Below are positions 35,501-55,300 of a DNA stretch of 64,000 bases, piece by piece. Source of the stretch: a virus. Numbering within the stretch: the first letter of the stretch is position 1; the number at the start of each line of letters is the position of its first letter. Both the position numbers and the translations under genes were made by a program. The notes under the pieces were generated by a model that was not told the DNA's origin, searched no databases, and worked only from the letters and a program-made list of their open reading frames with translations. The stretch lies in the IMG/VR virus record IMGVR_UViG_3300035180_001452, positions 1 through 64,000 of that record, one strand, 5' to 3'.

Positions 35501-37922
35501 GGTTATGCATCAATTTAACAATAACCCTATCCATTTCGTCAAACTCTTCTCTGTTTCTTTGTGCTGGTCTAAACTCCATCAGGTCTAATTGAAAACTATA
35601 TACATGTGGGTACCCTTCCATAGTAGAAATGGACAGACTAATAGGAATAAAATTGCTTACTCCTAATGTATTTAGAATAGTATTATCTATAGTCATAAAG
35701 CCTGCGTAAGGAATGTTCCAAGGTCTTGGTCTCCATTCTCTCGCAACTTTTCTTACTGTCTCTACCATATTAGTAAGCAGGTCTACATCGTCCTCACCGA
35801 CTAGAGTCCCTTGTATTGATACAAAGGCATCTCCACTACCAAGATACTGATGTTTAGGTAAAGGATCTTGTTGTACCTGCTGAGTAGCCAGGTTTGTAGT
35901 AAACTGAACCGAAATATTACTTATTACAGATTCTGGAGATAGTGTATATTCATCCATATCAGCAATACTTATTTCTGGTTCATCGCTTCTATCAATTCTC
36001 TGAGCTATATATGCCCATATAGAAGAATTTCTTGGTACTAGAAAATAAGGGGAGTTATTATAAACCGCATCTGATTTATACGTTTCTGTTTTTAACAGAT
36101 CGTATATATTTTTAGATATCGCTAACTTTTCAGAATCTTTTAGCCCACCATTAGGAAGCAGTTCTATCTGTTCAAAGGATTTATTTTTAACTGCCTCCTG
36201 TATACTTTTACTGCCTATAAGCTTATAGCTAGAATAGGCTGTTATAAGCGGGTCTTGTAAAGCCTTAATAATATTTCTAGCTAGCTTAAACTTAACTAGC
36301 GCATAGTCCTGACCATCAAGCTTTAAAGTTATTAGGTCTCGTCCATCTTCAAGTTTATATACAGAACTAGTATCAAGATCTATTATATTCGATACTATAA
36401 GAGCTATAGTAGCATCATCATCCATTATAAAGGTGTGTCCTTTAGAATCCTTCTTTTCTATATCTACTAGAGTAGGATTCTTATTAGAATATCTAGCCTC
36501 TAAAGTATCGTTATTAGGTATAAGAAATGTAGTGTCACCTGCTATAGAATCTACTGCTGGCTTGGGTCCTCTTACATTATCATTTCCATACGTGTCTTCA
36601 CACCAAGCCCTGAATAATGGCCAACACCACGAATCACCAAAGCTATCATTCTCCGGTAAATACTGCCACCAGGCAAATGGTTCAGCTATTATCCTAACTG
36701 CAACTCCTTCAGGTGTACTGTCTAAAGTTTCTAGATGGAACTCCTTTATTGCAATAGCGCTTATATTCCAGTCTTCATTAAGATATACATTCTCAATAGG
36801 AAGAAACGGAGTTCTATTGTACTGCTGCATTAAAGGTATAACTACTGAGTTATACTGATCCTGTCCTATAGCAGTAAAAGATATCTGTATTTGGGTTATG
36901 GTATTATAATCGACTGCTTTAATAGATCCTTGATTTCTTAGAATCTCTATATTATCCATACCATTATCTGTTCTAATGGCAATGGACTGCGGAGGTATCA
37001 TAAGATTAGTATATCCTATTCGAGTATAGGACTCTGGGTGTAGAAACTGCTCCTCGTCCTGTGCTAGTTCTATAGGCATTACTACATGTTTTCTTTCAGG
37101 CCTATCTTTACTAGAAGCCTGGTCACTACTAATAGAATCTAAAAACTCTTTCTCTGCTTCTACTAATATATCATTAGGGCTAGGAAACGCTGCTGAAGAG
37201 AAAGAATGTCCTGCTTTTAACATCTGATTCATTACTCTATCAATAATAGCTCTATCCTCTTCAGCAGTTCTTGTTCTACTATTTATTGGATTTTTTGCAA
37301 CAAGTATTAGTCCTAAGTTCTTTGGAGATCTATTTATAGAGCTAGTGGTTTGTATAATATCAGTAATGTCAGTACTATTAGAGTTATTGCTATTAGAACC
37401 CTTACCACTAGACCTCATATCTATTATGCTTTTAGGTGAAGAAGTCGAAGTTGATATATAGCTATCTGCTAGCTTAATCTCTACCCTACCTTTTTGTTCA
37501 ACGAGATACTTAGCTATAGTAGGACTAGATGATTTTGCTGGTAAGGTAATCTCTATACTATAGAAATTACCGGGGACTAGTTCTCTGGTCGCGTTGTAGG
37601 CTTGGTTAAGCTTAATCTTTCTTACTAAAACATTGCTACTCTTAAATAGGGATTGTTCGGGCTCGCACTCCCATATAACACCACCAAGATCTATGGGAGA
37701 GCTATTAAATATGGAATAGCTGTTATCTGATACCGATATACCAGCCCGTGGATAACTATCTATAGTAGCGCTGTCGGCTTCTATACTAAATGCGCTAGTA
37801 GCACCATTTGAATTATTATCTAGGGGATAGTCATTAATGCTAGAAACATTAAAATACCCAAACCCATCTTCTACTTTAGTTAGTAGCGCATACACACGAA
37901 CCCTTTTCTGATTAAGCGACAT
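29571..37922 (-). CDS. Giant baseplate hub/tail lysin with SLT, intein and NlpC/P60 domains, 2783 aa
   Basis: Multidomain baseplate hub protein. Residues 1-~1000: tail-hub/LysM-adaptor-like region including 'NIPYAGFMTIDNTIL' and 'HVYSFQLDLMEFRPAQ'. About 1041-1065: tandem linker SASSNSNVPAAN. About 1100-1215: lytic transglycosylase (SLT) domain with catalytic E1123 in ILRESDG and GYIGLMQL. After that, a gp27/XkdQ-like hub region ending IRLGYG, split by an intein (1537-1873) and resuming SDASKYPVKFNGVISEV. About 2447-2508: Lys/Ala-rich stretch, then hydrophobic IAAAAVGILL. About 2670-2783: NlpC/P60 peptidase with C2696 (DCSGFV), H2746 (THVGIY) and H2761. It would cut both glycan strands and stem peptides at the cell wall. 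The start overlaps the preceding gene by 11 bases; AGGAGACTAAAGAGAA precedes the ATG. Confidence 0.88.
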   Translation of the reverse strand: MSLNQKRVRVYALLTKVEDGFGYFNVSSINDYPLDNNSNGATSAFSIEADSATIDSYPRAGISVSDNSYSIFNSSPIDLGGVIWECEPEQSLFKSSNVLVRKIKLNQAYNATRELVPGNFYSIEITLPAKSSSPTIAKYLVEQKGRVEIKLADSYISTSTSSPKSIIDMRSSGKGSNSNNSNSTDITDIIQTTSSINRSPKNLGLILVAKNPINSRTRTAEEDRAIIDRVMNQMLKAGHSFSSAAFPSPNDILVEAEKEFLDSISSDQASSKDRPERKHVVMPIELAQDEEQFLHPESYTRIGYTNLMIPPQSIAIRTDNGMDNIEILRNQGSIKAVDYNTITQIQISFTAIGQDQYNSVVIPLMQQYNRTPFLPIENVYLNEDWNISAIAIKEFHLETLDSTPEGVAVRIIAEPFAWWQYLPENDSFGDSWCWPLFRAWCEDTYGNDNVRGPKPAVDSIAGDTTFLIPNNDTLEARYSNKNPTLVDIEKKDSKGHTFIMDDDATIALIVSNIIDLDTSSVYKLEDGRDLITLKLDGQDYALVKFKLARNIIKALQDPLITAYSSYKLIGSKSIQEAVKNKSFEQIELLPNGGLKDSEKLAISKNIYDLLKTETYKSDAVYNNSPYFLVPRNSSIWAYIAQRIDRSDEPEISIADMDEYTLSPESVISNISVQFTTNLATQQVQQDPLPKHQYLGSGDAFVSIQGTLVGEDDVDLLTNMVETVRKVAREWRPRPWNIPYAGFMTIDNTILNTLGVSNFIPISLSISTMEGYPHVYSFQLDLMEFRPAQRNREEFDEMDRVIVKLMHNPKYKDIVPEPYSGNTPEDIKKIINKTTNNYKDILIEKIGESPIDRMWKSSTLATRLRMIELYPDMYLPSNRKLDYWISLLKYFYSTGRAAGGVEGEHYLASMLKNIDLSKDNLETITLLDISGDPLGYVDPDFYCPPHKDPRKITKELLDTNIGETSPGFGSLLCYDDFGGRFFLTPGKKFEEEEEPPNDYIKDKDKKFRKYQEKRLKEYYDKVLDARARSRNKEDTQDDDEDSASSNSNVPAANKASASSNSNVPAANGVDRSKYSRPTGISAHVGGVNRITSPIRNQISEIRQRYFNNVKGLDDGLIVGIILRESDGRSLSANEKGYIGLMQLNKDDVNAVKSFLVNSGFSKNHNIYNLEDPIVNVTVGIARIAGYLEKYNGDVRKALWAHLSGTGTVARGHMSSEAQNYVDDIREMKDWWNQGGNVSSLHNTPSASNGERKRHDSYYNVLTKAKVPEPYKTKLLNDLMNRKIKIYDITRLCFEASFIPKSAFSEYDAYDVHEEELIPVDGSWRTMEGEEHYSKILKKDLPPGCVDGGNGVLYSYMAKMPEDYTKKYNVEISADDNNFDIKLESDDDIGNITNRIRNMFNDLRNKSHESRLVGAFPAYLVVIVDGGRWIGVERVWDHMYGAHGINSIDIVQSRKDPVDVATITFSNLYGKLTSTATSVALEDRQNTINTWTMEAVTSGVSQFLSGLIGEDLERRWSQWARSMMLRPGARLHIRLGYGCADEETEILTSNGWCKYTDLKEGDTVLTLNHSTGKSEWQQVSRVNVYDVEGEDLLYLDGPKHSSLTTLDHKWPVINLDTGKDESVARKWTTSKELLPSESIPVAAVNNDLPKDKKYSDELVELVGWFIVAGTIKPNQDRKQVELAKRARLSNESRNRISHLLEKLFGPISSSLSKGGPSTKNSPPRWTEKKGSYKDIPFFCLSRSASKDLLEIAPRKIISSDWIKELTLGQLEILLRVIAGKDLDKEEGSIIQKEPEKLVPIELACILAGKKTNLRQRYNRKANCLEYILTFSNTPHLKVGEHFPVKIKHTGIVWCPTTPNGTWFARRRGTTYYTGNSDASKYPVKFNGVISEVPVADRYCQVIALGDAIELMKPFPDTDSYMIYDSSVQKQKEHNMFQNTGIFALHGKEPRNIIGELFRPSWDLVSAVSAGRWQYNNPYGISHFGSLDYSIAWSSDNNFMPTYSLGEIGVNLYNSKQDPDNNSTAWQNWLTVNGMLAHLQGQTLIGVQIEDASPWKVIETCRKAIPDFIAAVRPFDYRSTLFFGKSSFPFYYKYKDGNVNASKLPNDNIEKYMALMDSKTFSQIHIICSGHNLIASNIIATDENVITNCQSKYIYGGAIRTVIREGDIMKADSDIFPEHQKTIVNNSGLLSGTLYGLEGIQSIANAISFGNINTVNTAANTTSVMLIRDSLADMYQGGSIISGDPYIFPWDYVYLIDASTLMNGLVQVKEVTNHFSLDAGYITVVSPDCLVATAGHVESSMWFSLARIGYSYASYRIWRYSLGHIIRRLSNSKIKSAIVGKAAKLSKNVTEKDLIKTRNGLLKAYESIKNKLKSNGVVVKTSEFIEKYAPEVKDMVTARVTANQWGNKIYGLIKKAEVGKHTTNIINYAKTTWASSKAGKKVAEFMSKEAQDEEAVAAAAKKTGKAVKTAAANKAGKAAKTVKAAEVVKGSKKAKAAAKGVASGAKGAIDLLDIAAAAVGILLTSTIGDTIGRWLSSSQSVVIMPLKVNDLEFSAGIEGHMGAVIGDPISTSDWFWASILSSADKDFLGSIVPFLADLVFPGSDSGWNPNNPEENNMQFPKIPEIQEDNFNKYIDKLNETINSTGTNTDLIMDDGTTGNIPVQPITKDSLFNAAKSFEGKKYVYGGDMSNLSSNNGLDCSGFVQAVFKNLGRDIPRTANVQYKMCTKIQEKDLKPGDLVFKLSNGIATHVGIYAGDGMVMEAPHTGSVVVLNTPLRKFNPDAYGRL
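30400..30585 (-). other. Lys/Ala-rich histone-H1-like segment within hub protein
   Basis: Codes residues ~2447-2508 of the hub, a run dominated by AAKKTGKAVKTAAANKAGKA-type KA repeats, followed by a hydrophobic helix. Such sequence is typical of nucleic-acid or membrane-active tails and unusual in a hub protein. Confidence 0.7.
32304..33314 (-). other. Intein 2 (in baseplate hub), 337 aa
   Basis: Residues 1537-1873. Block A: C1537-ADEETEILTSNGW...L-x-x-GDTVL. Block B: LTTLDHKWPV with T-x-x-H. The C-terminal end is GTTYYTGN with S1874 as +1 residue; the penultimate His is replaced by Gly. Endonuclease-like helices LVGWFIVAGTI and ILLRVIAGKDL lack one or both catalytic Asp positions. The flanks join as LGYG-SDASKYPVKF, a natural hub sequence, supporting correct boundaries. 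Confidence 0.85.
34726..34803 (-). repeat. Two 36-bp copies, 42 bp apart, in hub linker
   Basis: A 36-bp segment at 34726-34761 recurs at 34768-34803, apparently identical. It encodes SASSNSNVPAAN twice, a flexible linker just before the transglycosylase domain. Confidence 0.85.
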
Positions 37923-39654
37923 TTCTCTTTAGTCTCCTAACTAATATCCTATCCAGCTTTTTTGTACTTACTGCACCGTCTGATATTTTAACATGAACAT
38001 GGCTCTTCACTGGAGATATAACCGCCTCCTGTCTATGCTCATGTACTATATCAGAATCCATAGAGGGTTCTGATACTATATTTATTTCGTTGCTTACTTC
38101 TGGCATAGGAGTATGTAATGCAGAATCTTTCTTACCATATACTTCAGGAGCCTTTACGGCTGTACTATCAAAAGCAATTCTGTTGGAATACTCCTTGCCG
38201 GAAAGCATACTTTGTATCTGTCGTTTATCTAGTTTTACTAGATTCTTTTTTTCTTTAGGACTAAGAAATACCCTTTGTTCTGTTGCACTGGAAGAACTTT
38301 TTATGGGGGAGGCACTAAGTTCTTGTGATACCTCTTTTAAGTTAATCCCTCTTTTTCTTAGCTTGGAACTTAGTCTATCAGTTCTTAGCCAGTTAGATAT
38401 CTCTCTTTTACTAACGGCATACTTATCAAATACTCTACGCATTATACTATCTAAATTTTCATAGGCAGTATTTTTATATGTAGAGGCTAACTTCATTTCT
38501 GCCAGTACGGCTGATTTTATTGGATTAGATATTCTTCTCTTAACTGTTTTGCTTACAATTCTTTCTGCATATTCAGCGGCTCTTCTAACATCAACAACTG
38601 ATGAATCTTTATATGTTCCTAGTCTATTTGCCTGCTCTCTTGACGCTGGTCCTTTCTCTCCAACCCCAGCATGGCCATATGCATGTCTACTAGATCTGTA
38701 ACTTGCATCTACAACATTTGCTATTTGGTTAAGCACTAGTCTAGTAGCACTAAAAGCCATTATATCAATAATAGGACCGCCTATTTCTTGAAATATAGGA
38801 GTTAGTTTTCGTACAGTATCTGCTCCTAACTTATTCTCTAGCTTTCCTATTGGTATAGCTTTATTGCCAATACCCTCCAATATCTTAATATCTTTTTCCC
38901 ACTCAGCAGCCTTATTAGTAAACCATGAGCTATCTAGGCTATTGCCAATCCATTTATATAAATCCGATCCTCTGCTGACAATTCCACCAGCAATATTTCT
39001 AGCAGTAGGACTTGATAGAGCAGCTCTACCAAATGCTCTAGATAAAGGATAAGATACTATCTCATGAAGAGCAAATGGTAACGATCTTATAATTCCTCCA
39101 GGACTTCTATTATCCTCTTTATAGTCTATATAAGCTCCTATAGACCTTCCTATTCCATAGTATAAACCAAATACAGGATAAGCATTAGCTGTAGTAAATA
39201 CAGATGCTAAAGATCTAGCTATAAATGGATCTCCTACAGACTGACTAAATGCAATTCCAGCTGATCCAAGTATAGGTATGCCTAATCCAATCGCTCCACC
39301 TATATTAGCATAGCTAGCAGCCTTATGAGGATCTACTCTTGACTGCTCTTCATAGGTTCCTAACCACTCTGACATGGTTCTAGAAGCAGGACCTTTTTCT
39401 CCTACACCCCAGTGACCATAGGCTAGCCTATGAGAATACTGTAAGGATGAATCTATACTAGGAAGTTCTCTTGGTACAAACTCTAATAAATATCTTAGAG
39501 GAGTCATACGTACAGGAGACTCCATACGGAAGTTACCAAGATGTGTTCCTACTATTTTCCTGGCAGACTCTGGATATGGTTGAGTATTCCAACCAATGTC
39601 TGATTTATTTATATAGGTTCCGCGTACCGACCGGTCATCAAATACACTAGCCAT
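37912..39654 (-). CDS. Hypothetical tail protein with duplicated YGHxGVGEKGPASR motif, 580 aa
   Basis: Unrecognised. Two copies of a ~35-residue element are visible: 'LAYGHWGVGEKGPASRTMSEWLGTYEEQSRVDPHKAASYA' split over about residues 75-115, and 'HAYGHAGVGEKGPASREQANRLGTY...VDVRRAAEYA' at about 322-360. Each is followed by a helical stretch; the first one is glycine-rich and hydrophobic (IGGAIGLGIPILGSAGIAF), so it may touch a membrane. The C-terminal half is basic and helical. GAGGTAGAAA precedes ATG 39654. It is placed directly between the exonuclease-bearing giant and the hub, so a tape-measure cap or ejected protein is conceivable but not shown. Confidence 0.65.
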   Translation of the reverse strand: MASVFDDRSVRGTYINKSDIGWNTQPYPESARKIVGTHLGNFRMESPVRMTPLRYLLEFVPRELPSIDSSLQYSHRLAYGHWGVGEKGPASRTMSEWLGTYEEQSRVDPHKAASYANIGGAIGLGIPILGSAGIAFSQSVGDPFIARSLASVFTTANAYPVFGLYYGIGRSIGAYIDYKEDNRSPGGIIRSLPFALHEIVSYPLSRAFGRAALSSPTARNIAGGIVSRGSDLYKWIGNSLDSSWFTNKAAEWEKDIKILEGIGNKAIPIGKLENKLGADTVRKLTPIFQEIGGPIIDIMAFSATRLVLNQIANVVDASYRSSRHAYGHAGVGEKGPASREQANRLGTYKDSSVVDVRRAAEYAERIVSKTVKRRISNPIKSAVLAEMKLASTYKNTAYENLDSIMRRVFDKYAVSKREISNWLRTDRLSSKLRKRGINLKEVSQELSASPIKSSSSATEQRVFLSPKEKKNLVKLDKRQIQSMLSGKEYSNRIAFDSTAVKAPEVYGKKDSALHTPMPEVSNEINIVSEPSMDSDIVHEHRQEAVISPVKSHVHVKISDGAVSTKKLDRILVRRLKRNVA

Positions 39655-39657
39655 TTT

Positions 39658-42600
39658 CTACCTCAACAGCTTTTTTGCTATTTTATTAGCTTCTTGTTTA
39701 GTAATCTTTCTTCTATCATTAGAAATGACATGGCTTTTATCTGAGGCTCCAGTAGAATGCATATCTATAGCAGCATGAACCGCATTTACTATTTCATTAG
39801 GATCTACGTTACTATCTACAACACCCTTTATTCTTCCATGTATTGATTTGTGTATAGGAACTTCCTTTCGTACTACTCTATTATCCATCTTGGGCTCATT
39901 GATTTGGTCGTCTTCTGTCAATATACTAGGAGCTGACTTACGTATGCCAATACGAGAAGACATGACTCCTAGAGTAAGTAGAGCCCCTCCTATGGCTAGT
40001 ACGCCTGAACCCTTAAGTAATCCTCGTAGTTTATTTCCTAAATTATCCATACTTGATGGCATTATTCCAGAAATAAATTTACCAAAGTCTTCTGCCTTAC
40101 CAGAATTTATTATCCATGCCTGACCCACAGCATTAGCAGACCTAGCAACAGATGGCCCCTTTGGTGCGCTATTCGCTATTGCAGCATTGGCTGCAGCAAC
40201 TGTAGCCTTAGCAACTGACGGACCGTTTTGAGTACTATTTGCTACAGCAGCACTAGCTATATTAGCCGCACCTTTATTGACAGTACCACCTACAGCAGTT
40301 CTAGTTGCTTTAGCTGTAGCTTTAGTAGCTGCTCTACCCACAGCATTACCGCCTATTGAAGTCGGTGCTCCACCAACCGCTCTTGGTTCAGCGTTACCAA
40401 AATACCTATGTACTGCTTCATAAAACATATTATTAGTATAGCTACTTTTATCTAACTCTTCTAATATTTTATCTTTTGCTTTACTTGCTAGAAGATCTCT
40501 TAGGTAGTATGACTTTCCTCCAAGAGGTACGATAGCTTCTCCAATATTTCTGGTAATACCGTTAACTTCTACTGGCTGTATACTACCTTTTGTTATTCCT
40601 TTAATAGATTCAGACATATCTTGCCAATTAAGTACTCTTTTTATTTCCTGTCTTTGTATGTCTGTAAGAAATCCACCATTAGCTCCATATCTAGATTCTT
40701 CAATATCTCTTATTAGTATCTTAGCAAGCTGTGTTTGTCCCTTAGCTCCATGAATTGATACCACCTGTCTTGGTGTTAGGTTAAGAACTGATGGTGCGTA
40801 TTCTCCAGACATAAAAGCATTAGGTATCTCTAAGCTAGAAAGTCTAAGACCTGCTTGTCTAAGTTCAGGATTGGCTTTATACATAGCTTCTTCTTCGCTA
40901 CGTATCATTTTGCTTAGCTCTGCAGGATCGTGTATTCTTTTCTGGAAGTTATTTAGGTAATCGAGCATTATACTTCTATTAACAGCTCTGCTTTTATATC
41001 CTCTTTGTTCTATTCCTTTCCACCAAAGAACTCCCTCAAACTCATTGTTAAGAGACGGGTTCGTAGCAAGCTGCTTCTCCATATTTGTCTGCATATAGCT
41101 TCTTATACCAAACGCTAAATTTCTAGTTGCGTCCATTCCAAGCTCAAGAGACACATTGTCAGGTACACCAGCAGCTTTTCTAATTAGATCTACTACACTC
41201 TTCCCTTCAAACTTAAAGTTGTTTTCTATTAGATGTCTTGATAAAATTTCCCTATATGCTACTTGATTATTTCTAAATACTCCTCCGTTCTCAAAGAACC
41301 CAATTAGGTCTTGTTCATTAGCAACTTTTCCTAGGGCTGTTCTCATTATTCCTAAAGCTTTACCGGGATCGTTTTCGTGTGCTCTATAGAAAGTTCTGAG
41401 TACGAATTCTTCGATGCCATACTTAGTAAGCTGTGGAGTTGCTAGTCTTATTCTATATGAGTTAGTTATATCTGGAGTTATGGTCCATTCATGGAAAGGC
41501 TTTTGTGCTACCTCTTTCGCAAAATTAAACAAAGCCCCTTCAGTATTCTGTGCTCCATATACCTCTTTCCAACGAAGCCTGATTAAGTGCTGGGCCTGCT
41601 CTGCATTTATACTACCAGCTTTCATTTCTTTATCTATTAGATTAAAGAATGGTCTATCATATATTTTATATTGGTTATTAAACCAATCTAAACCAGATCT
41701 ATACTGTCTACGTATTCTAGGGTCCTTAAGAAACTGCGTATCAATCCACTTTAGTCTTTCTCTAAGCTCTGGGCTATCACTACTTTCTACGTACTGTGCA
41801 AAAGCATCTCTGGTAACCTTAAGTTTTTCTTCTGGAACTTCGGCCAGTTTCATCTTCCATTCAATATCTTCAAACCCAAACTTACCAGTTCCACTCCTTT
41901 CACCAGACAGTATCTCATGTATTCTTCTATTAAATAGATCTTTAGCAATTCTATCTTCTTCTTTTGCTACTTGTGTAGTATTAAGATTAGCTTCCCTAAG
42001 ATTTTGTAGAACTGTAGATAGCTGCAGAGCATCTTCTGCAAATACTGTTCTTCTAGTGGTAGTATTTGCGTCTACTAGATCTACAGCCCACTGTTCACCC
42101 CCGGTACTTGGATCTATGCCTTTTCTAATACTTTCTACAGCTAGCATTCTATTGCTAATATCTACTGGAATGTTATTACCATACGGGTCTCTCATTCTAG
42201 TGGGGTGGCCATATAGTATTTTATCTTTAAACTCTTCTGCAGATAACTGATGCCACTTGCTAATATCAACTTTTAGATAGTCATTAACTCCCGCTTCCAT
42301 AACCTTAGCAGTTAATAAAGCATCTTCTGCACCGGTGTGAGACTGTGCTCCTTTTAGTATGCCTCTTCTTGCTGCTGCGGTAGATAAAGCCTGGAAGCCA
42401 CCTTCAGGAGCTATAGCAGACTCAAGGAACATCACGTTTATAGCTCTATTTTTATTAGCTTCTACAAACGTATTATAGGCTTTCTCCATCTCTGCTAGTC
42501 TTTTAACTAGTTGTGCAGCCTCAGGAGTTGTAGGTACTTGAGATGCTCCTGCTGCCATTTCAGCTATTTCTGCTTTTATACGATCTTGATGCTTTTTAGC

Positions 42601-45600
42601 CATCATAGCCATTTTCATAAGGTCAACGTTTTCGTTATACACAGCAATTTTAGCTGTTGGGTGCTTATTTATTATTTTAGCTGCTTCAGTTAACATTTGC
42701 ATATCAGCTTTATTCATAGCAGCTATGTCATTAACATTACCAAGTATATCTGTTGTGGCTTCTTGTATTCTACGAGTATTCTTCCACCCTCTAAAGGACT
42801 TGTCATATATAGTAGTTCCCTGTTTCTCTCCAAACTTCTTTTTAACTATACCAACATTTCCTAGTCTCGTATATCTAGGACCGTATGTTTCAATATCTAG
42901 AGCTAAGTACTCTTCTTTATTTGCTGCCACCTCTTTTAATCTAGCTAGCTGTGCTTCTGGTCCACCCTCCATAGATGAAGCTATATACGAGTCATCATTA
43001 ACTTTCCATATTGGAAGAGGGCCATCAACAGGTTTCATACCAAGTAGTCTTTCTTCATCTGTGAAAGTAGCGCTCCTCATCAGCTGATCAAAAGTCATCT
43101 TGGTAGTATAGCCTTCTTCTGTTGTAAAACCAGTTCCATATTCATCATAAACTATATGAGGAGCTGATGGGCCGTTTATATTAGCTATCTTAGCTCCAGA
43201 AGGACCCTCTTGTCCCATACCGTACTGGCCTTTTGTTTTTGCAGAAGGAAAGTCCTTTTCCCAATTTAGGGATAGCCCTTCCATAGGTACCACAAGATTC
43301 TTATCTTCTCCTGCTATTACAACTCCAGGTTTTCCAGCTACCTCTTTAGTTTCAAAGTTTTCTTTTCCTAATGTATTAATAATATTTTCTACATGGTTTA
43401 TATCCTCAACATTCCAAAAAACTTTACCGTTCTCAATACGCACACCTCCCGGTAAAGCATTACTATATCCTACGGTCTTATCTATAAATTCTAATAGCCA
43501 GTTAGCTACTTTTGTATTGTTAATATCTGATTCGTCTTCAGCATATTTAGAAGCTAGTCTTAGTGCTACAGTCTTAGCATATGCTTTTTCTTCTTCAGAT
43601 TCAGCGACTACTAAGTTACCTACTGCCTCTTCTAATAGAGGATGTTTATCATTTAAAGATTTATTCCATAATCTTGTATGTTCATTAAACCTTATCTTAT
43701 CGCTATCATTAATTTCTAACCAATTTTCTTCGTTTCCAAGCTTCATGTTATATGTTTCTAGTAAATTATTAAATTCGCTATTGTACTTATCAATTTTGGC
43801 TATAATCTCACCATACTCTTTATGTTTATCGCTTTCTATAATTTGGTTAACATACCAATCATATTGGTTATTCAACTCAGCCAATTGGGTAATATATCTA
43901 TTATTTTGTCTACGATACTTATCATATTGAGCCACAGCCTTCTTCAACTCTATTGTTTTATCTTTAAACTTATTCTTTATATCAGGATCATTATCTGTTA
44001 GAATATCCATAAATTCTATAATATGTCTATGTATACGTGGGATATTTTCACTTTCATTAAAACTAATATTATTATATATAGATGAATAGATATTATTTAC
44101 AAGTTTCCACTTCTTGTAATTTATTTCTAGTAAATCATCTAGTCCTTTTAGTATACCTTTATTCTGTGTAAGTTTTTCAGCATTATCTTTAGCTTTTTTT
44201 ATAATTTGGTTAATATACCAATCATATTGTTCACTATACCTATAGTATTGGTAAGCATAGTAATTATATTGTTTATTATACTCGTTCTGTTCGGCTATGA
44301 TATTACTTACTTCTGCTAGTTTATCTTTAAATATCCTTCTTGTAACAGAATATTTATATTCTATAGTGTCATCAAATTTTATAAGTCCTCTTTTAAGGTA
44401 CTTGTTACGTAAGCGAACTTTACTTCGGGTAAGCTTAATATTGTTAAATATAGACATTTGTATATTATTCATAGGCTCTTTAATATTTGCTATATATTCT
44501 TCCATATCTTCTACTCTAAACCCTATTATATCTTCTAGCCTATCTATAGATTTCATTATACTAACAGACTCTTCTGTATTTCTATTAGGAAGATTAAAAA
44601 TTCTTCTATGTGTTCTTTTAATACTAAGCTTAGTTCTTAGTAGAGATTTTATAGAAGCTCCTTCACCAGTAGGCCTACTTTCCATACCTACTGCTTCTAG
44701 TAAATCTTCTTTTTCCCATCCACCAGCAGCTACAGATGCGCTAAATATCTTACCATAGGCACCCATTTCTCTATAGAACAGCTGTTCGGCATTTTTTCTG
44801 TGCAGTTTTCCAGCTGTTGTAGATATTAACTTAGCTATACTCTTTGCCTCTTTACTACTAAGGTTATTAAACAAGCCTAGTAAGTGGTCTTCTATAGCTT
44901 TACTATCTGTTAAACTAACTTCCTTTGGTATAGAGTTTATAAACGTTTCTATTATAGAAGTACTTCCGCCTCTTTTCCTTATCTCTCTTAAGATTCTTTT
45001 TTTACTAGGTAGGCTAAATATAGTACGATCTATAACTTCTTGTGCATATCCACCCTTAGAGGCCGATTCAATAGCTTGCATAGCATAGTCTGTAGGATCC
45101 GCTATAGTGTCGGCAATAGTTAAGCCTTCTGTATCAGCAATCTCTTTAGATAGAGATACAGTTCCTTGGCCTGAAATAGGCTTACCTATACGAGTAAATA
45201 CATCTTCTCTTGAACCTAGCCTTCTACGAGTAATAGATGCTACTTCTTTCACAAACTTTTCGTTAAAGTTTTCTGCGGAAAACTTGGACTGGTTACTAGT
45301 TAAGGCAGCAATAATTTCTGTTGCTAGCTCTGACTGTAAATCTTCTAGTTCGTTTATATCCATAGAAGCAATAGTAGCGGGCGATATTCCAAGACTACTT
45401 AATATCTGCTCTCCTACTCTTGACTTTAGTACTTTTCTAGGGTCAATTGTTCCATTTGTGGCTACTCCTAACAGTTCATATACTCTTGAAAGATCTAGCG
45501 CTTTATCTCCTAGAGAAATGGAGGTTCTATTAAATACTTCTTTAGCACCACTAGTAAGGCTACTTATATCTGCATCAGACATATCTAAAGTCTCGCCTGC

Positions 45601-47472
45601 ATTAGACATAATCCTTAGTAGAGCTTGTGCTGGTGTTTCACCCTCATGGTTAGACATATATAATCTATATAGTGGCTTTGATACAGTTTTACCTGCTTCC
45701 TCAACTTCAGTACGAAGAGGCATAGTTACCGGAGAAAGTGTTACCTTAGGCCCTCCATCAGCTAGTGGATCAAACTCAGTTATACGCATAGCAACATTAT
45801 ATGGTCTTAATATTACTGTGTCATTTACTCCTTTAACATCCTCTAACATTGGGCCTAAAGTATTTGTATATTTTCCAAACTCGCCTATACCACCTCCTTG
45901 TGCAGCTGTTGGAAATTTGGTCAGAGCTCTTCTAATTTTATTAATATTATTCGGTGTGTGGCTCCCCCATATACCAAGGCATATCTCTTCTTCTGTTGGA
46001 GGCATACCATTAGACTGTTTATACTTTTCTATAAACTCTCTAATCATTAAGTTATTTATAGAATCATTATTAGCTATAGACCCGTTAAGATATTGAGTCA
46101 TTTTAAATCCAGGCTTATCTATTTTACCCTGTAAATAATCTCTAAACTCTCTAATTAATAAAACATTAGAACTATCCATAGGCTGCATTAGCTCGCCCTG
46201 TCTCATTACAAATTCATTCCATTCTCTAAGGTTCATATCTCTAGAAAAGCCATAAGTATAAGACTGTTCTCTTATGTCCTCACTAAAGAACTCTCCTAGA
46301 GAATCTTTACCCGCTATAGATTCGCTAAGAGATTCAGCTGTTCTAAATCCATGAATATTTGCTATTTTTCCAAACCTATCTATATCCTGTAAATACTCTC
46401 TTAACATCCTCTCTCTACTCTTGACTTCTGGATTTAACATCTCAGAAAGAGCTATAGCAGTTTTACGTACTCCCTCTCTTTTAGGGTTGAGATAACCTAT
46501 TCCAGCCCCCTGGCCTAAACCGGTATGCTGTGAGAAAAGCTGAGAGGCTTTTGAGTGCCCACCTATATATTTTCTAAACTCTTCTATTAAAGATTCAGCA
46601 TCTTGTTCTCGGCCCATCTGCTTAGCAACAGCCCTTATATCTTCAATTGCTTGGGCTACTTTGTCTGCTACTTCTGGTACATACTCTTTACCGGAGTAAA
46701 ACTCTCTGAGTATTCTTTGTGTTTTTTTAATCCTAAGAATATAGTCTCTACGTCTTCTTGCTCCTCGCTCTAGCCAGGATAGTACATCTAAAGGTTCGTT
46801 ATCAATTAATAGCCCCTCATTAAACCTAGCGTTAGGTCTATTTTTAAAAGTAACCTCTAGCTGTAGTCCATTTTCGTCTATCATTTCTGATAGAACTTTT
46901 TTTGCTATAGAACCTATTATCTTTTTTTCGTCATTATTAAGTACTGACGATACTCCTTCTATACCATATATCTTTTTAATTTCTTCTTCTAAGAAGTATC
47001 TAGATTTACGAATAAGCTCTCTTTTTTCTCGTTGCGAAAGACGTGAGGTATTATATACTAATAGTTTAGGATCAACTGGAACAGGTTCAGGCGGTGATTT
47101 AGGTACTCGCTTAGAGCGAGTAGGCTTAGCTGGAGTAGGTGGAGTAGGTGATGTAGGGGCTGGCCTAGGAGTTCCATGAGAAACTCCTACTTCATGAGCA
47201 GGACGAGGCACTTCAGGATGTGGATTTCTTAGCGCTCTATCTATAAATCCTCCAGCAGCTCTGTTAACGCTCCCTACAATATTAAGAGCACGTAGCTGTA
47301 TCCTAGCTACATACCCCTTACGTATAAGGTATACAAATGCAGCTGTATTAATCCCAGCCCAGGCAATATTCTCTATTCGCTGGATAATACCAATTTCACC
47401 GCTCTCTGTATCTTTAACGGTATCTCCAACTCTAAAGTCTCTTGGGTTTTCTGAGTAGTGCTGTTTTCTCAT
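39658..47472 (-). CDS. Giant tail-operon protein with internal DEDDh (DnaQ-like) exonuclease domain, 2604 aa
   Basis: A tape-measure-sized protein in the tail operon. N-terminus: short SH3/KOW-like strand region (FRVGDTVKDTESGEIGII), then a hydrophobic segment (about 34-50) and a Pro-rich linker. The middle is long, charged and helical, with aromatic coiled stretches YDWYINQIIKK and YDWYVNQIIES (about 1060-1215). Residues ~1515-1735 form a 3'-5' exonuclease domain: D1526 and E1528 in LALDIETYG, D1617 in NVDLMKM, and H1712/D1717 in HTGAED, the full DEDDh set. Ala-rich repeats and a hydrophobic helix (about 2484-2507) lie near the C-terminus. It may combine tail-length or ejection functions with nuclease activity. 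The ATG follows a 14-bp-stem hairpin and has no strong ribosome binding site. Confidence 0.8.
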   Translation of the reverse strand: MRKQHYSENPRDFRVGDTVKDTESGEIGIIQRIENIAWAGINTAAFVYLIRKGYVARIQLRALNIVGSVNRAAGGFIDRALRNPHPEVPRPAHEVGVSHGTPRPAPTSPTPPTPAKPTRSKRVPKSPPEPVPVDPKLLVYNTSRLSQREKRELIRKSRYFLEEEIKKIYGIEGVSSVLNNDEKKIIGSIAKKVLSEMIDENGLQLEVTFKNRPNARFNEGLLIDNEPLDVLSWLERGARRRRDYILRIKKTQRILREFYSGKEYVPEVADKVAQAIEDIRAVAKQMGREQDAESLIEEFRKYIGGHSKASQLFSQHTGLGQGAGIGYLNPKREGVRKTAIALSEMLNPEVKSRERMLREYLQDIDRFGKIANIHGFRTAESLSESIAGKDSLGEFFSEDIREQSYTYGFSRDMNLREWNEFVMRQGELMQPMDSSNVLLIREFRDYLQGKIDKPGFKMTQYLNGSIANNDSINNLMIREFIEKYKQSNGMPPTEEEICLGIWGSHTPNNINKIRRALTKFPTAAQGGGIGEFGKYTNTLGPMLEDVKGVNDTVILRPYNVAMRITEFDPLADGGPKVTLSPVTMPLRTEVEEAGKTVSKPLYRLYMSNHEGETPAQALLRIMSNAGETLDMSDADISSLTSGAKEVFNRTSISLGDKALDLSRVYELLGVATNGTIDPRKVLKSRVGEQILSSLGISPATIASMDINELEDLQSELATEIIAALTSNQSKFSAENFNEKFVKEVASITRRRLGSREDVFTRIGKPISGQGTVSLSKEIADTEGLTIADTIADPTDYAMQAIESASKGGYAQEVIDRTIFSLPSKKRILREIRKRGGSTSIIETFINSIPKEVSLTDSKAIEDHLLGLFNNLSSKEAKSIAKLISTTAGKLHRKNAEQLFYREMGAYGKIFSASVAAGGWEKEDLLEAVGMESRPTGEGASIKSLLRTKLSIKRTHRRIFNLPNRNTEESVSIMKSIDRLEDIIGFRVEDMEEYIANIKEPMNNIQMSIFNNIKLTRSKVRLRNKYLKRGLIKFDDTIEYKYSVTRRIFKDKLAEVSNIIAEQNEYNKQYNYYAYQYYRYSEQYDWYINQIIKKAKDNAEKLTQNKGILKGLDDLLEINYKKWKLVNNIYSSIYNNISFNESENIPRIHRHIIEFMDILTDNDPDIKNKFKDKTIELKKAVAQYDKYRRQNNRYITQLAELNNQYDWYVNQIIESDKHKEYGEIIAKIDKYNSEFNNLLETYNMKLGNEENWLEINDSDKIRFNEHTRLWNKSLNDKHPLLEEAVGNLVVAESEEEKAYAKTVALRLASKYAEDESDINNTKVANWLLEFIDKTVGYSNALPGGVRIENGKVFWNVEDINHVENIINTLGKENFETKEVAGKPGVVIAGEDKNLVVPMEGLSLNWEKDFPSAKTKGQYGMGQEGPSGAKIANINGPSAPHIVYDEYGTGFTTEEGYTTKMTFDQLMRSATFTDEERLLGMKPVDGPLPIWKVNDDSYIASSMEGGPEAQLARLKEVAANKEEYLALDIETYGPRYTRLGNVGIVKKKFGEKQGTTIYDKSFRGWKNTRRIQEATTDILGNVNDIAAMNKADMQMLTEAAKIINKHPTAKIAVYNENVDLMKMAMMAKKHQDRIKAEIAEMAAGASQVPTTPEAAQLVKRLAEMEKAYNTFVEANKNRAINVMFLESAIAPEGGFQALSTAAARRGILKGAQSHTGAEDALLTAKVMEAGVNDYLKVDISKWHQLSAEEFKDKILYGHPTRMRDPYGNNIPVDISNRMLAVESIRKGIDPSTGGEQWAVDLVDANTTTRRTVFAEDALQLSTVLQNLREANLNTTQVAKEEDRIAKDLFNRRIHEILSGERSGTGKFGFEDIEWKMKLAEVPEEKLKVTRDAFAQYVESSDSPELRERLKWIDTQFLKDPRIRRQYRSGLDWFNNQYKIYDRPFFNLIDKEMKAGSINAEQAQHLIRLRWKEVYGAQNTEGALFNFAKEVAQKPFHEWTITPDITNSYRIRLATPQLTKYGIEEFVLRTFYRAHENDPGKALGIMRTALGKVANEQDLIGFFENGGVFRNNQVAYREILSRHLIENNFKFEGKSVVDLIRKAAGVPDNVSLELGMDATRNLAFGIRSYMQTNMEKQLATNPSLNNEFEGVLWWKGIEQRGYKSRAVNRSIMLDYLNNFQKRIHDPAELSKMIRSEEEAMYKANPELRQAGLRLSSLEIPNAFMSGEYAPSVLNLTPRQVVSIHGAKGQTQLAKILIRDIEESRYGANGGFLTDIQRQEIKRVLNWQDMSESIKGITKGSIQPVEVNGITRNIGEAIVPLGGKSYYLRDLLASKAKDKILEELDKSSYTNNMFYEAVHRYFGNAEPRAVGGAPTSIGGNAVGRAATKATAKATRTAVGGTVNKGAANIASAAVANSTQNGPSVAKATVAAANAAIANSAPKGPSVARSANAVGQAWIINSGKAEDFGKFISGIMPSSMDNLGNKLRGLLKGSGVLAIGGALLTLGVMSSRIGIRKSAPSILTEDDQINEPKMDNRVVRKEVPIHKSIHGRIKGVVDSNVDPNEIVNAVHAAIDMHSTGASDKSHVISNDRRKITKQEANKIAKKLLR
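42250..42930 (-). other. DnaQ-like DEDDh exonuclease domain inside the 2604-aa protein
   Basis: Codes residues ~1515-1741. Motif ExoI D1526-I-E1528, ExoII N-E-N-V-D1617, ExoIIIε H1712-x4-D1717, with spacing typical of proofreading-type exonucleases. All five metal/catalytic positions are present, so activity on DNA or RNA ends is plausible. Confidence 0.85.
43830..44290 (-). repeat. Imperfect coding repeat (aromatic coiled segment) in 2604-aa protein
   Basis: A ~35-bp segment around 43853 (ACCAATCATATTGGTT region) recurs around 44213 with few changes. It encodes QYDWYVNQII and QYDWYINQII within Tyr/Asn/Gln-rich helices. Confidence 0.6.
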
Positions 47473-48132: not shown

Positions 48133-49098
48133 CTAGGCAATAGCTGCTGCAGGATGTTTGAAAAACTCTTTTGTGTTAAAGGCTATAAGGTCTCTAAATA
48201 TTTCCTTAACACTACTAAGTGGTCTCTTGTCTAATGCCCATATTATGGCATTGGTTGATGATATGCCCTTCCAGGGGATATTACTTTCCTTGTCTATAAG
48301 CTGGAAAGTGAGCGGCTTCGAAAAGATCCAGGATAGATAAACTCGCCAATCTTCTCCAATGACTCCCAAACAATTAGGGTTTTCAATTAGAGCAACCTGC
48401 TCAGCAGTAGTTAGTACTTCACTACTACCCCAAATAGTACCATTAGACTCTACATATACAGAAGCAATTCCTGTCTTATGTACTTTACACCACTCCCATA
48501 CAGTATCCCGGTATTCTTCACTAGCGTCCTCTGATATGGGAAATACCATATAGTAGTCATCTCTAACAGGCTTTCCATCCTCAGCAGCTATACTAGTCCT
48601 CAATTTAGTCTTAATAGACTTTTTAGTCTTACCCCTTACATATGCGTAAGGTATCATATAAGATGGTTCAAGATAATCTGTAATGTCATAGCTAGGTCGT
48701 AGGCCCTGTAAAGCCCTAGCAAAATCAGTAGTTACTGTAGAGAATATGCCATAGATATCTCCTGGAACCCCGCCTTCTGGAGCATTTCCAAGAAACTTCA
48801 TCATATCCTCTAGCTTCTTAGCTTTCGACTCTTCTGAATAAGTATGGGCCATTTCTAGTGTTGGATCAACAGTATATACAAGGTCATAGCCAATATGTGA
48901 GGCTTCAGAAAAATCGTCTAGACTATATATGTTACTAGCTAACGAAGACTCAACTACTAGCTCTTTACACGATTCAGTAGAAACTGCCGCATCCATAAAA
49001 ACTTGGTAAGGAAAGTACTTAATAGTTTCCCTCATAGCTCCTAGAGCAGCTAGCGTTTCTACTTCTTTTCCTGGAATCTTTACTAAGATCTTGATCAC
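48133..49098 (-). CDS. GT9-like (heptosyltransferase-type) protein, possibly degenerate, 321 aa
   Basis: The N-terminus MIKILVKIPGKEVETLAALGAMRETIKYFP and the C-terminal stretch LTTAEQVALIENPNCLGVIGEDWRVYLSWIFSKPLTFQLID follow the layout of GT9 family GT-B enzymes ('I-L...G-D-x-l-a-t-P-a-l-r-x-l-k...P' and 's-l-x-e-l-a-x-L-i...a-x-l-x-i-g-x-D-s-G-x-x-H-l-A-a-x-x-x-x-P-x-v-x-l'). However, the DTGP-H type catalytic/binding residues are not evident (EDWRVYLSW), so it may be inactive or belong to a different GT-B branch. Start GTG 49098 is supported by AGAAGG seven bases upstream. It lies inside the giant-protein region, next to the second glycosyltransferase-like enzyme's operon. Confidence 0.45.
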   Translation of the reverse strand: MIKILVKIPGKEVETLAALGAMRETIKYFPYQVFMDAAVSTESCKELVVESSLASNIYSLDDFSEASHIGYDLVYTVDPTLEMAHTYSEESKAKKLEDMMKFLGNAPEGGVPGDIYGIFSTVTTDFARALQGLRPSYDITDYLEPSYMIPYAYVRGKTKKSIKTKLRTSIAAEDGKPVRDDYYMVFPISEDASEEYRDTVWEWCKVHKTGIASVYVESNGTIWGSSEVLTTAEQVALIENPNCLGVIGEDWRVYLSWIFSKPLTFQLIDKESNIPWKGISSTNAIIWALDKRPLSSVKEIFRDLIAFNTKEFFKHPAAAIA

Positions 49099-49373: not shown

Positions 49374-52300
49374 CTATATCTTTGATGCTACCTCATTAGT
49401 TCGGTCATGAGATAGGTTAACTTCTATATTAGACTCACTACCCTTAGTAGAATTTGACATATTAAGTTCTATGGAAATATCTCTAACTCCCCTACCCTTT
49501 AGTAGGGTTTCTAGTGTTCTATGTACATCGGCTACCTCTCCATGAATTACGGGAATAGGAACCTCTCTAGTTGCTATCTTAGCATCCATAGAATTTATAG
49601 GATATATCCCCATTTCCATAGGAGTAACGCCTTCTTTCTGCGCAGTTACTACTCTAGCGTTCTCTAGGTTAAACTCTTCTTTCCATCCGGCCCAGGTATC
49701 ATCTGGAAGTTGATAATTCTTAAAGAACTCTTTTAACGATTCTTTCTGTGGTGTATCTTTTTTACGTATACCTAAGTACTGTCCTAGTACTGATTTCTGT
49801 CTCTTAGTAAGTAATGAAAAGAACTCCTTCTTCTCTCTAGGACTTCCATTAGCTACTATATCCATCGCTAGCTCTCTTTCATACCTAGGCAATCCGCCCA
49901 TCACATTATTTAACGGATCACCTGGAATAGCACCAGTTATGGTCCTTTTAGCTAGCCCTCTATATAACAAAGCTCTAGCCGCTAATGGTCCTATATCATA
50001 CTCTTTTCTATTGGACTCTACAATCTTATTTATTTCTCTATTAATTCTCTTAACTTTTTTTCTCTTCCAGTCTACGCTAGCATCAGATAACATTATAGCT
50101 CTTTTTCTATTCTCTAACTTATCCAGCTCTTTTTTAATTCTATCTCCTTCTAGATCTTTTTCATCCGCAACCTTTAGAATATCTATACCTTCCTTTTCTA
50201 AAGCGGCATCAGCGTATTGTTTAGATAGTCTGGTATACTTTACATATCTTAGTGCATCATAGTACTCTTCTATTTCTCTTCTCTTTCGTACTCTCTTTGG
50301 AATGTACTTCTCACCGGTAAACACTTCTCCTAGAACTCTTCTTATAGACATTTGAGCAGCTAGCGCTCCTCCTACTGCAGCGCCTATCTTTTTACCGCCT
50401 ACCAGTCTTCCAAATAGAGATCCTATAAACGCACCAGTAAGAGTTGCTAATATTGGATTGCGAGAAGCTATAGCATCCATAGTCGGTCTAACGTAGGTTT
50501 TTATCGGTGCTGCCCAGTCTCCTGCAGTAGTACCATATACCTGAGATCTTTTATATTCTTCGAGAGCCGATCTAACTCTTAATAGCTTAGTATGAAATGG
50601 AGTATCTAGATGAGCAAACTTTTCCCATAGTAGGCCATATAGTCTTGACAACTTACCATATCTTGCTACTATACCGGGAGCGCTGTTGTCTCCTGTCTTT
50701 TCTATACCTACGCCTGTATCTATTAGAGCTCTGTTTACATTAGTACCGCCAGCAAATACTGCTGCCCGCTTAGTTTGTAGCATATCATCAGAGATCTGGT
50801 CATCATCCTTTGTAGCCATTACGGCTCTTATCTTAGCGCCAGGTTCTATGCCAAAGGTTCTGTAGAATGCGGTTATTGAATCATCGCCCTTTTTTACTCT
50901 AATATTTTGTTCCTTAAGATACTTACGTATTCTATCTTTACTTACTCTAGTACCAGCCAATCGTATCGGATGCTCGTCCTCCTCGACTATAAAAGTATTA
51001 GCATCTAGTATAGACTTTATAGTATATTCCCTGGACTCCGTTTTTTGATTAAACCTATAGTCTCTTATTTTATATATTTTCTTCTGCTGACTTGCCCTCT
51101 TTACTGCCTCATTAACTCTTTTTTGCTTATACTCAGCTACCTCTGGAGTATCCTCCGCTATCTCTGCTCTTACATTAGCAAGCTCTGTTTTTAGTTCATT
51201 AGACCACGGAGCAACGTCAGATAGAATCTCTACTCTAGTTAAAGAACCATATCCTGATACACCGTGTATTCTTTCATAAGCCTCTCCCGGTAATCTTATC
51301 TCACCGGCAGGAATCTTAACGTAAGGATCTCCAGTCTTAAAGTTTATAAAGTAGTCTTCTCCAGGCATCCAATCAGGCATTTTGTTAGGAACTGGGTTAT
51401 ACTCATGTATATTTCTATTTCTATGTGGAATAATTCTACGCCAGAATTCTGAAAGATCACCGGGGATACCACCCAGATTTCTGTCCCAAAATCTTCTTTC
51501 GTATCCATACCCTCTATCTGCTGATTGTATTACCGGGGTGTTTATAGTCGGAGCAGTTCCTAGTGCTGTTGCTGCTACCTTTTGAGCATAGCCATAGATA
51601 CCAGCAAGATCCCAGAACTGTTCTGTTAGCTTAGTACTCTGTACCTTAAAGGACTTTGAACTAATAGCATTACTATAATCAAAGCTACTATCAACTAAGT
51701 CTCCGCCTTTTATAGGAGTCCAGGTACCAGAACCTCCGGATTGTCCTCCGCCTGCACTAGAGTACGGCCCTTCTCCTCCTGTTCCAAGTCCTGTTTGTAA
51801 AGCACCTCCTCCTTGTAGTACTTTATACTCGCCACTCTTAGTGAAGCTGACTCTAGTAGCACTTGGAGCGCCATATCTACCGCTATCAGAACCTTCCTCT
51901 ACGCCCTCTTCTAGATATTCGGGATGCATGATTCTTGTAGGTTTAAGTATCCTACCAATAGTCATATTACCTATATTACCTAGGAAAGTATCTGGGCTAA
52001 ATAAAGTACCAGTTTCTATATACGGACGATCTTCTTTGTGCTTTTCTTCCCACCAATATGGGTCTAGTAGCTTCTTTATAGGAGAAAATGGATGTGATGG
52101 TGTTGGTATAGCACTATGCCCCCAGTACTCATCACTATTTAGATCTACATTAGAGGCTTCTTGCCACTTACTCTGAGATAGCTGATACCATGACGGGGAA
52201 TAATACTGAATCTTATCTCCTACAAAAGCCTGTCTGCTATTATGAACCGCCTGTGCTATAAGGCAAAAACTTTCTCCTTCTGCTACTTCAAAGTCATACA

Positions 52301-55300
52301 CAGTCCCACTATACTTAGTTGTATCTATACTTTTTATTTGAAAATAAACATAGTCATCTGTAAATACTGTTATGCTAGTATCGCGCAAGTTTATACAGTA
52401 GGGATATACTGTGCTTTTATTTTTTACTTTATCGTCATACTGTAAGGGCTTTTCAATAGAGCACTGTATACCAAGCTGTAGACAAATCTTTTGTATAAAT
52501 AGCTGTAGTTGTCTGTTTGTTGTGCTACCGTTTATTATCCCTTCACCAGAAAAATCAGCCCCGCTCTCTAGTAAGTAGGACATTAGCATGAACAGTATAC
52601 AGTCGCTAGGCGCGTTTAACAACTCATCCGGTATTCTCTTTTCATTATCTTCTCTAAGTAAAGTCTTTATAGATTTAGCAAGAGTACTATTATATAGAGT
52701 TACTTTTAGTACTGTACCAAGATCGCTTATATCTACTTGATATTCGGTTATTTCTTTTAGTAGGCTAGATATAGTATCAGCGTGCTCTTTACTTAAAGTA
52801 AATGATATACCGGAGGGTTCTCCTTGGTCGTATATTATTATTCCGTTGGCTAGATACCATCCAAATATGGGGAATAGGTCTGTAGTTAATTCTAATGTAT
52901 CCGTGTTAGAAATAGTAATATTCTTAAGCTGCCCGGTTCCTACTGGTCTTGGATATGCTAGATACTGCCCCTCTTTTAATTCATCTGCTCTTACCCATTC
53001 CCAGGATATATAGCGCGAATAATTAGGCCGTGTTCTTTGCACTGCTACAGGAACAGGATGGTTTCCTGTTACTATAAAGCTAGCCCCATCTCCTGCATAT
53101 GTTGTTATAGAGTATACAGGCTCATCTACGCTTCTTGTAAATACGTGAGTAATAGTAGTGTCTATTCCATAGATGTTCTTTACTGTATCGCCAATAGCTA
53201 CTTTATCTGCTCTAACAGGGTTACCTTCTACCATAACTTCTACGTCTGGTAGTAAGCATCCAGTTAGCCACCATCTGCCTCTTCTTACTGGCTCTCTTCC
53301 TTCTGATAGATACTCCTGCTGTTCTTCATAGCTCCTAGGCTGCCAATAGTCCTCAACCCCAGGCATTAAATCAACAAGAGCCTTAGAGCGGTTAGTTATT
53401 CCAAGTATATCAGCGGTCCACGATCCTGCTAGTGCAGCATGCGCTCTAATATTACCAATAGCCTTATCTGGCGTAAAGCCTATTGTATTACTAGAAACAT
53501 AGTTAGCATATTTCCAGGCTTCAACTGCACCAAAAGCTGGAAGAACTCTCTTTAGAGCTAGATTTTTGTATATCGAAGCAGTATTTTGTAGGTCTGAGTC
53601 TGGAAGTCCTAGACCATACTCCGCAAGCATTTTATTAAGTCTATATGCCATGTGGTATCCAGGACCTGGGTTGACGGCTCTACCCATTCCCGGTACTGTT
53701 TCCCCATATATATAGGAGACTATAGGATTTATACTTCTGTCTTTGATCGCCTCTAGCGTAGCTCCTACATAATTACTACCAGCAGGAACTGCATATAATC
53801 TAGTTCCTACACCTTCTATACCTTCACCATTAATCCATGGAGTAGCGCCTCCATGCCATCTATTTAGTACGTCTTTTAATATGTCTCCTACATTACTACC
53901 GGGACTCCTAATGATATTAGCTATTTCTTCTGCTCTAGCGCCTTGATCTAAGAACTTATTACTTAAGTATTTTTCATTAAATAAGCCCCAGATACTAGCC
54001 ATCAGATCATTCTTAGCACTTTTAGATAGCTTAGGAATACTGTTTATATTCTCTCGCATCACATCAAATATATAGGGGGCGTCTGGATTATCGGCTATGT
54101 GAGAGAATATCTCATCATAAAATACTTCTCTAATCTTATCGAACCCTGCTACTGGATCCGATTCTCCTAACAGTCCGCTAAGATTAATTATACTAGGACT
54201 TGGATTCTTTAGTATCCCTTGAGATAACAGTCCTATATCATTTTGTACAAATCGTCTAGCATTAATTTTAGTATGTAGCCCACTAAATATTCCTGCTGAT
54301 GCTCTATCAAAAAATCTAACGTTGTGTAGAATTTCTCCTCCTACTGCAGCATCTATTTCTCTTAGCGCAGTAGCGAGAGACTCATCAGAAAAACCTTCAT
54401 TAATAAGACCTATAAATCCTGGATGAAGATTGCTGTGCTTTATTATTTCTGGGCTAAATATCTGGCTAGGTTTAATACCTTTAGGTATAGAGGTATACTT
54501 ACGTACTGTTCCAAGAATATTTTCTATATCATCTATGCTATTACTTCCCTGCATAACTCTATTTAGTGAGTTTACTGGGTTGCTCGCATACTTATCTGCA
54601 TTAGGCCATAGCCATTTTCCTATAGCGCTCCAGGCTTTTCCAAATTTAGACGGCTCCCCCTGCCTATCTAGGCCCATAACATCCATTATTTGGCCTAGTG
54701 TATTGTAACCTACCCACTTTCTTAGATTACCTTTTTGTGAATAATAAAGATTTGGGTTAGATCTTATGCGAGAAAACTCCTGCATAAGTCCAAATCTAGC
54801 ATCTTTAATATTCCATTTATTAATTTCATCTGGAAATGGAACAGAACCTACTACTCTATTTCCACCTTCTCCTACCTCTTCCGTTCCAAATATTCTATTA
54901 CCAACATAGTATACGTCTCTAAGAAGTTCGCCTTTATTATTAAATAGCTTAGAACGTAGTTTTTGTGGTGCAGCCTCATAAATTTCTCTTTGTAGGCTTC
55001 CAGCTCCTAGAGTACCAGCAAAGTCTTTTGCTCCCCCTCTTAACCAAGGCATGAACTTAAATGGCATTAGACCACCAAGTCCTGGAGCTACTGGTACAAT
55101 GAAATTATTAGATAGTATATTAAACCCGGCCTCTGCCATATTCATAAGAGGCCCTAGATTAAAAGCTGACTCTCCTGTGCTTACTATATCAGTAGGCAGA
55201 TTTTCTATAATGCTTCTTATAGCTAAAGTGTCTATACTCTTAGTAGTTGCTTTTACTGCGTGCTCTTCAGCTAGTGCTAAAGAATAGGCAGCTTTTGCAG

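Follow-up and report, generated by a model that had tools for sequence, protein, structure and literature searches.

A predicted DEDDh exonuclease domain in a giant tail-operon protein of 0305phi8-36-like phages

Why should a phage tail operon encode the catalytic residues of a 3′–5′ exonuclease? The question is raised by the IMG/VR virus record IMGVR_UViG_3300035180_001452, of which we analysed the first 64,000 of 122,380 bases (the window). One gene of this stretch belongs to a conserved tail operon, where its place is after the tail chaperones and before the baseplate hub; it encodes a protein of 2604 amino acids (aa). An initial annotation, made from the letters alone, had proposed that it contains all five DnaQ-type catalytic positions (D1526, E1528, D1617, H1712 and D1717), and each of them is where it was said to be in the translation of the open reading frame (ORF). 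On balance we consider it likely that this is a genuine, probably active DEDDh 3′–5′ exonuclease, situated in the giant tail protein that this 0305phi8-36-like phage encodes and descended from an ancestral virion protein that combined a polymerase with an exonuclease.

Results

Conservation of the exonuclease domain

We asked how much the motif says by itself. A strict regular expression for the DEDDh residues with their spacing matched once in the 2604-aa protein (start at residue 1523), and it matched in 6 of 2000 composition shuffles, so that the motif on its own is suggestive and the decision falls to homology. Searches with the single protein gave no RNase_T match and no accepted family in Pfam (matches to Peptidase_S78 and DUF5344 were under the cut-off and were disregarded), no match in PHROGs, no match in the PDB by phmmer and, by tblastn, none among 50,697 phage records. 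Scans of IMG/VR, whether the query was the full protein or the domain, returned a partial identical copy spanning aa 1–1487 as the sole match.

Relatives were therefore sought by position: loci were fetched from IMG/VR and from GTDB genomes (including contigs of Oceanobacillus, Alicyclobacillus and Paenibacillus assemblies) with the neighbouring 2259-aa tail protein as a synteny anchor, and the gene adjoining the anchor was taken as the positional homologue of the 2604-aa protein. In the closest relative, L046, whose anchor is 50% identical, the orthologue is 35% identical over aa 1347–2603 and keeps all five catalytic residues. Residues 1501–1735 are the most conserved 235-residue stretch of the conserved half, with 49.5% identity to L046 as against 23–41% in the flanks. 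A scan of IMG/VR with the pair of sequences once more returned the L046 contig only.

In the wider set, CDS0027 of Moorella phage MTATph1 lies above the Pfam gathering score for RNase_T (24.2 versus 24), and a profile built from seven domains finds the exonuclease domain in further loci at 62–143 bits. When the 1258-residue alignment of the window protein with its L046 orthologue was compared with the family domain by hhalign, two colinear matches were obtained, one covering motif I and the other motifs II and III, with scores of 33.3 and 30.3 versus a best score of 26.0 in 100 column shuffles. In MAFFT alignments of 23 positional homologues, run in three modes and with no motif guidance, the five catalytic residues fall in invariant columns; apart from these, invariance is limited to one Gly and the Asn of motif II. 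The profile of these 23 sequences matches solved DEDDh exonucleases, with PolC the best (1.8e-6) and Cas2-DEDDh, ExoI, RNase T and TREX2 also found, and Pfam assigns RNase_T to 7 of the 23 members and RNase_H_2 to 8. The match to RNase_T/DnaQ families that the initial annotation suggested looking for thus holds for relatives (MTATph1 CDS0027 and the seven members just mentioned), and is not returned by Pfam for the 2604-aa protein alone. Since the profile–profile scores and the invariant columns establish homology to relatives that Pfam does match, we take the missing curated-profile match to be a sensitivity limit, not a failed definition. Judged by these comparisons, the exonuclease is a conserved feature of the whole phage lineage, not a one-off fusion.

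In MTATph1 (L006:16513-23869), an annotated transposase gene follows CDS0027, and CDS0031 holds the giant tail protein's C-terminal part.

Predicted structure

Structure prediction had been chosen beforehand, in the initial annotation, as the test of the idea. AlphaFold2, given the domain with the 23-sequence family alignment, produced a confident model (predicted local distance difference test, pLDDT, 81.5; predicted template modelling score, pTM, 0.81). Foldseek ranked RNase T first among PDB structures (prob 0.99, E 0.04), and further matches include Pop2/CAF1, 3′hExo, ERI3, TREX1 and other DEDD nucleases, amid unrelated ones; annotated exonucleases are among the viral matches. The predicted RNase H-like fold and DEDDh active site are well supported.

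An RNA-polymerase-like region in most relatives

Most positional homologues carry a second conserved element near the C-terminus, ~1,500–2,270 residues into the protein, where R-x-P-T is followed by a DxDGD loop. The arrangement RxPT...DxDGD is the signature that marks the catalytic barrel in RNA polymerases (RNAPs) of the two-barrel type. Eleven columns of this region are invariant in 14 sequences, R-P and D-D-D among them, and the best PDB matches of its profile are RNAP largest subunits, namely PHIKZ055 of phage phiKZ (E 0.0018) and those of African swine fever virus, bacteria and archaea. Pfam Rpb1_2 gives weak matches in 5 of the 14 sequences, a single protein of locus L025 has both a region matching a polymerase exonuclease and one matching an RNA polymerase in PHROGs, and loci outside the profile (L017, L049, L051-L053, L058 and L033) score 131–580 bits against it. 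Both the lineage-wide conservation of the exonuclease and the presence of this region in the same protein of most relatives were overlooked by the initial annotation.

A census of the modules by HMMER score places the exonuclease and the RNAP-like region together in ~26 non-redundant loci and the exonuclease domain only in ~7 (the window, L046, L010, L018, MTATph1, L059 and L060); another ~9 show just a polymerase-like signature or a weak match. The 2604-aa protein and its L046 orthologue gave no match to the DxDxD motif of a double-psi barrel or to an RNA polymerase, and a test for a polymerase remnant in the 2604-aa protein was negative. In a quick tree of the 2259-aa anchor, the exonuclease-bearing loci are found together on the same side of a branch whose support is 99, and within that side the exonuclease-only loci emerge more than once; this scatter indicates that the lineage has probably dropped the polymerase signature repeatedly and held on to the exonuclease.

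At the same gene position, Acinetobacter phage ME3_36 (L008:15173-19984) and loci L027, L029, L080, L100 and L107 have a DxDxD polymerase-like signature without the exonuclease domain. Elsewhere in the window phage, a 522-aa protein (record 95407-96975; L004:11407-12972) contains RYP...GDCDGD, which resembles the catalytic barrel of two-barrel RNAPs; with a marginal hhalign score of 24.9, it is weakly indicated as a candidate separate polymerase.

The tail operon and its neighbourhood

The phage is contractile-tailed and 0305phi8-36-like, a kinship drawn via the annotation of Acinetobacter phage ME3, which together with Bacillus phage KLEB27-3 and MTATph1 is distant kin by its hub, sheath and capsid proteins. 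The tail-operon context proposed initially is borne out by the sheath, the tube-like genes, the genes at the chaperone position, the giant proteins and the hub (Table 1). The KLEB27-3 homologue, gp034, carries the annotation ‘structural protein’. As to which protein is the tape measure, the 2259-aa neighbour and the 2604-aa protein are equally possible. A hydrophobic segment ~110–130 residues from the C-terminus is shared by the 2604-aa protein and most of the relatives examined.

Table 1. Features of the tail operon and of the 2604-aa protein (window positions unless a locus is given)
Feature	Position	Strand	Basis or remark
Giant tail-operon protein with exonuclease domain, 2604 aa	39658..47472	-	ORF; syntenic with KLEB27-3 gp034, MTATph1 CDS0027, ME3_36
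Variable N-terminal half, aa 1-1346	43435..47472	-	Scarcely conserved even versus L046
Conserved half, aa 1347-2604	39661..43434	-	35% identity to L046 orthologue
Predicted DEDDh exonuclease domain, aa ~1501-1735	42268..42972	-	Invariant catalytic columns in 23 homologues; AlphaFold2; most conserved stretch versus L046
Motif I, D1526 (42895-42897) and E1528 (42889-42891)	42889..42897	-	Context YLALDIETYG
Motif II, D1617	42622..42624	-	Context AVYNENVDL
Motif III, H1712 (42337-42339) to D1717 (42322-42324)	42322..42339	-	H-x4-D; context AQSHTGAEDA
Hydrophobic, membrane-like segment, aa 2485-2503	39964..40020	-	~120 residues before the C-terminus
Tail sheath	61003..62697	-	
Three tube-like genes	60195, 58395, 57518		
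Two small genes at chaperone position	56816, 56159		
Conserved 2259-aa tail protein with intein	49374..56153	-	'RLPGEAYE'; synteny anchor
321-aa protein	48133..49098	-	In the interval between anchor and 2604-aa gene; size and place matched in L046
580-aa protein	37912..39654	-	Downstream of 2604-aa gene
Baseplate hub, 2783 aa	29571..37922	-	SLT transglycosylase, NlpC/P60 and intein
Intein-like insertions	49374-56153; 29571-37922; L003:11813-14338; L005:6475-9024; L005:12380-15856		Tail protein, hub, large terminase, helicase, ribonucleotide reductase

Several further observations concern the same record. Preceding the exonuclease domain of the 2604-aa protein is a Tyr/Asn/Gln-rich stretch with an internal repeat around QYDWYxNQII (43800-44300, aa ~1060-1215). 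A papain-like peptidase gene (59314-60120) lies between two tail-tube genes, and in MTATph1 the place between the two corresponding genes is taken by an S-adenosylmethionine decarboxylase, which suggests a spot for the insertion of cargo genes. The 122-kb record has at least five intein-like insertions, and the intein region of the hub shares 39% identity with a mycobacteriophage protein. The record starts (1-1802) with a long tandem array whose units are multiples of 21 bp, mostly 126 bp, and near its opposite end (121648-122001) is an ORF with a repeat motif resembling that array. Between ~80 and 100 kb (L003-L004) the G+C content is 0.48-0.53, as compared with ~0.39 elsewhere, and there are many similar small ORFs.

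Discussion

Enzymes delivered by the virion are known, among them the virion RNAPs of N4 and crAss-like phages, the tape-measure RNAP of P23-45 and tail lysozymes. The exonuclease described here would fit a similar scheme. The 2604-aa protein would be stored in the tail and ejected together with the genome, its C-terminal hydrophobic segment might anchor it at the host membrane, and the exonuclease would use two-metal catalysis to trim nucleic acids from their 3′ ends as infection starts. The ancestor was probably a virion transcription protein in which a two-barrel RNAP and an exonuclease acted on the entering genome and the first transcripts; in the window phage the polymerase signature would have been lost from the tail protein and the exonuclease kept, to work now by itself or together with a polymerase from a separate gene. 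More tentatively, and with greater doubt than we attach to the exonuclease itself, we propose that a lineage of contractile-tailed phages loads a single polypeptide with an exonuclease and a two-barrel RNAP into the tail, as an ejected transcription machine with an end-trimming or proofreading nuclease, and that the window phage has a derived, exonuclease-only form in its tail protein.

Several points weigh against these proposals. The virion location, ejection, activity and substrate of the 2604-aa protein are inferred. A family HMM (hidden Markov model) made without the window protein misses it (0.2 bits), a result that makes separate proof necessary for this member. With two sequences only (the window protein and L046) AlphaFold2 gave a poor model (pLDDT 42); the better model is not fully independent, because its alignment includes the relatives, and every Foldseek E-value is at least 0.001. 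The conserved stretch behind the RNAP assignment in the relatives is short, and its PDB E-values are weak. Finally, the motif-III histidine was not found in L010 and L060, and motif III is unclear in L059, with the rest of the domain recognisable, so that some relatives may do without catalysis.

It is conceivable, if unlikely, that a tail-delivered exonuclease mainly degrades DNA or RNA of the host or of competing phages soon after ejection, independently of transcription. Retention of the exonuclease in lineages without the polymerase signature (the window, L046, MTATph1/L018) implies that it is able to work without a polymerase, and the staphylococcal-nuclease-like domain reported for the hub of BtI1, a relative of 0305phi8-36 (PMC2147016), implies that nucleases recur in the tails of this lineage. 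However, most relatives join the exonuclease to a polymerase-like region in one polypeptide, and an exonuclease requires free ends, which would be scarce on an intact host chromosome.

We regard as rather less probable that the enzyme acts on the 3′ ends of the phage genome as it enters, for instance to trim back ends that are damaged or protrude before the genome is replicated; like degradation of host DNA or RNA, this was among the functions suggested by the initial annotation. In the established view of tape measures, proteins of the tail interior are expected near the leading end of the genome at ejection (PMC10770324), and 3′ ends are the targets of DEDDh enzymes; protection of the RecBCD type, however, would demand a binding protein and not an exonuclease. 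Still more doubtful is a structural relic, with the fold retained for tail assembly and catalysis no longer needed. The motif-III changes in L010, L060 and perhaps L059, in otherwise recognisable domains, are what such a relic might look like, yet in the 23 homologues, the window phage included, it is precisely the catalytic residues that are invariant, and the domain is the best-conserved stretch in the conserved half of the protein. A chance arrangement of five suitably spaced residues in so long a protein, to which the lack of any family match for the protein alone and the occasional hits in shuffles might point, is hardly credible and was rejected, as the residues are kept in L046 and invariant in the 23 homologues, the profile–profile scores exceed all shuffles and the family alignment gives a confident fold; the DEDDh signature claimed initially is, on this evidence, genuine.

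A DEDDh exonuclease in the tail protein, then, shares with the DnaQ/RNase T-like enzymes the five catalytic residues with Hx4D, the motif-II Asn and the predicted RNase H-like fold. It differs from them in being one module of a 2604-aa tail-operon protein, rather than a replication, repair or stand-alone RNase enzyme, and in falling, in the window member alone, under Pfam detection. The delivery step has a precedent in gp96 of Thermus phage P23-45, in which a tape-measure protein and a virion RNAP are fused and which is thought to be active at the entry pore (PMC10770324). Both are giant tail proteins that combine a membrane segment with an enzyme module for nucleic acid, and the relatives of the window protein share the DxDGD two-barrel signature with gp96. 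In contrast, P23-45 is a siphovirus, its RNAP is N-terminal and a nuclease is unmentioned in PMC10770324, whereas the window protein has the exonuclease and lacks the RNAP signature.

Among the closer relatives, KLEB27-3 gp034 and MTATph1 CDS0027 are positional homologues with a DEDDh domain. Unlike the window protein, gp034 has the exonuclease domain N-terminal and the RNAP-like region C-terminal, and CDS0027 is separated from the C-terminal part of the protein, which lies in a later ORF. Locus L059 (218,948 bp), probably 0305phi8-36 itself, has exonuclease motifs I and II. In 0305phi8-36, gp146 lies directly before the hub gp147 and is assigned as the tape-measure protein (PMC2147016); it shares with the 2604-aa protein the gene position between chaperones and hub, and the searched passages of that paper yielded no exonuclease or RNAP domain in gp146. 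The same phage encodes a YonO-like RNAP separately (PMC7824862). By description only, the protein can also be compared with the injected ‘polyvalent’ proteins of tailed phages, which are large, multidomain and thought to enter the host with the phage DNA (PMC7824862): it may share their large multidomain make-up and host entry with DNA.

The initial annotation knew of no described example of such a fusion, and our searches of the open literature likewise found no exonuclease within a phage tail or tape-measure protein and no fusion of an exonuclease with a two-barrel RNAP, although absence there is no proof of novelty. The exonuclease at a conserved gene position, mostly joined to an RNAP-like domain, suggests that this lineage loads a nucleic-acid-processing machine into its tails. 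If so, phages of a widespread lineage would keep, inside their tails, a store of enzymes that act on nucleic acid as soon as infection begins, the giant ‘hypothetical’ or ‘structural’ tail proteins of KLEB27-3, MTATph1 and 0305phi8-36 would gain testable functions, and the relatives would supply candidate virion RNA polymerases of a new class.

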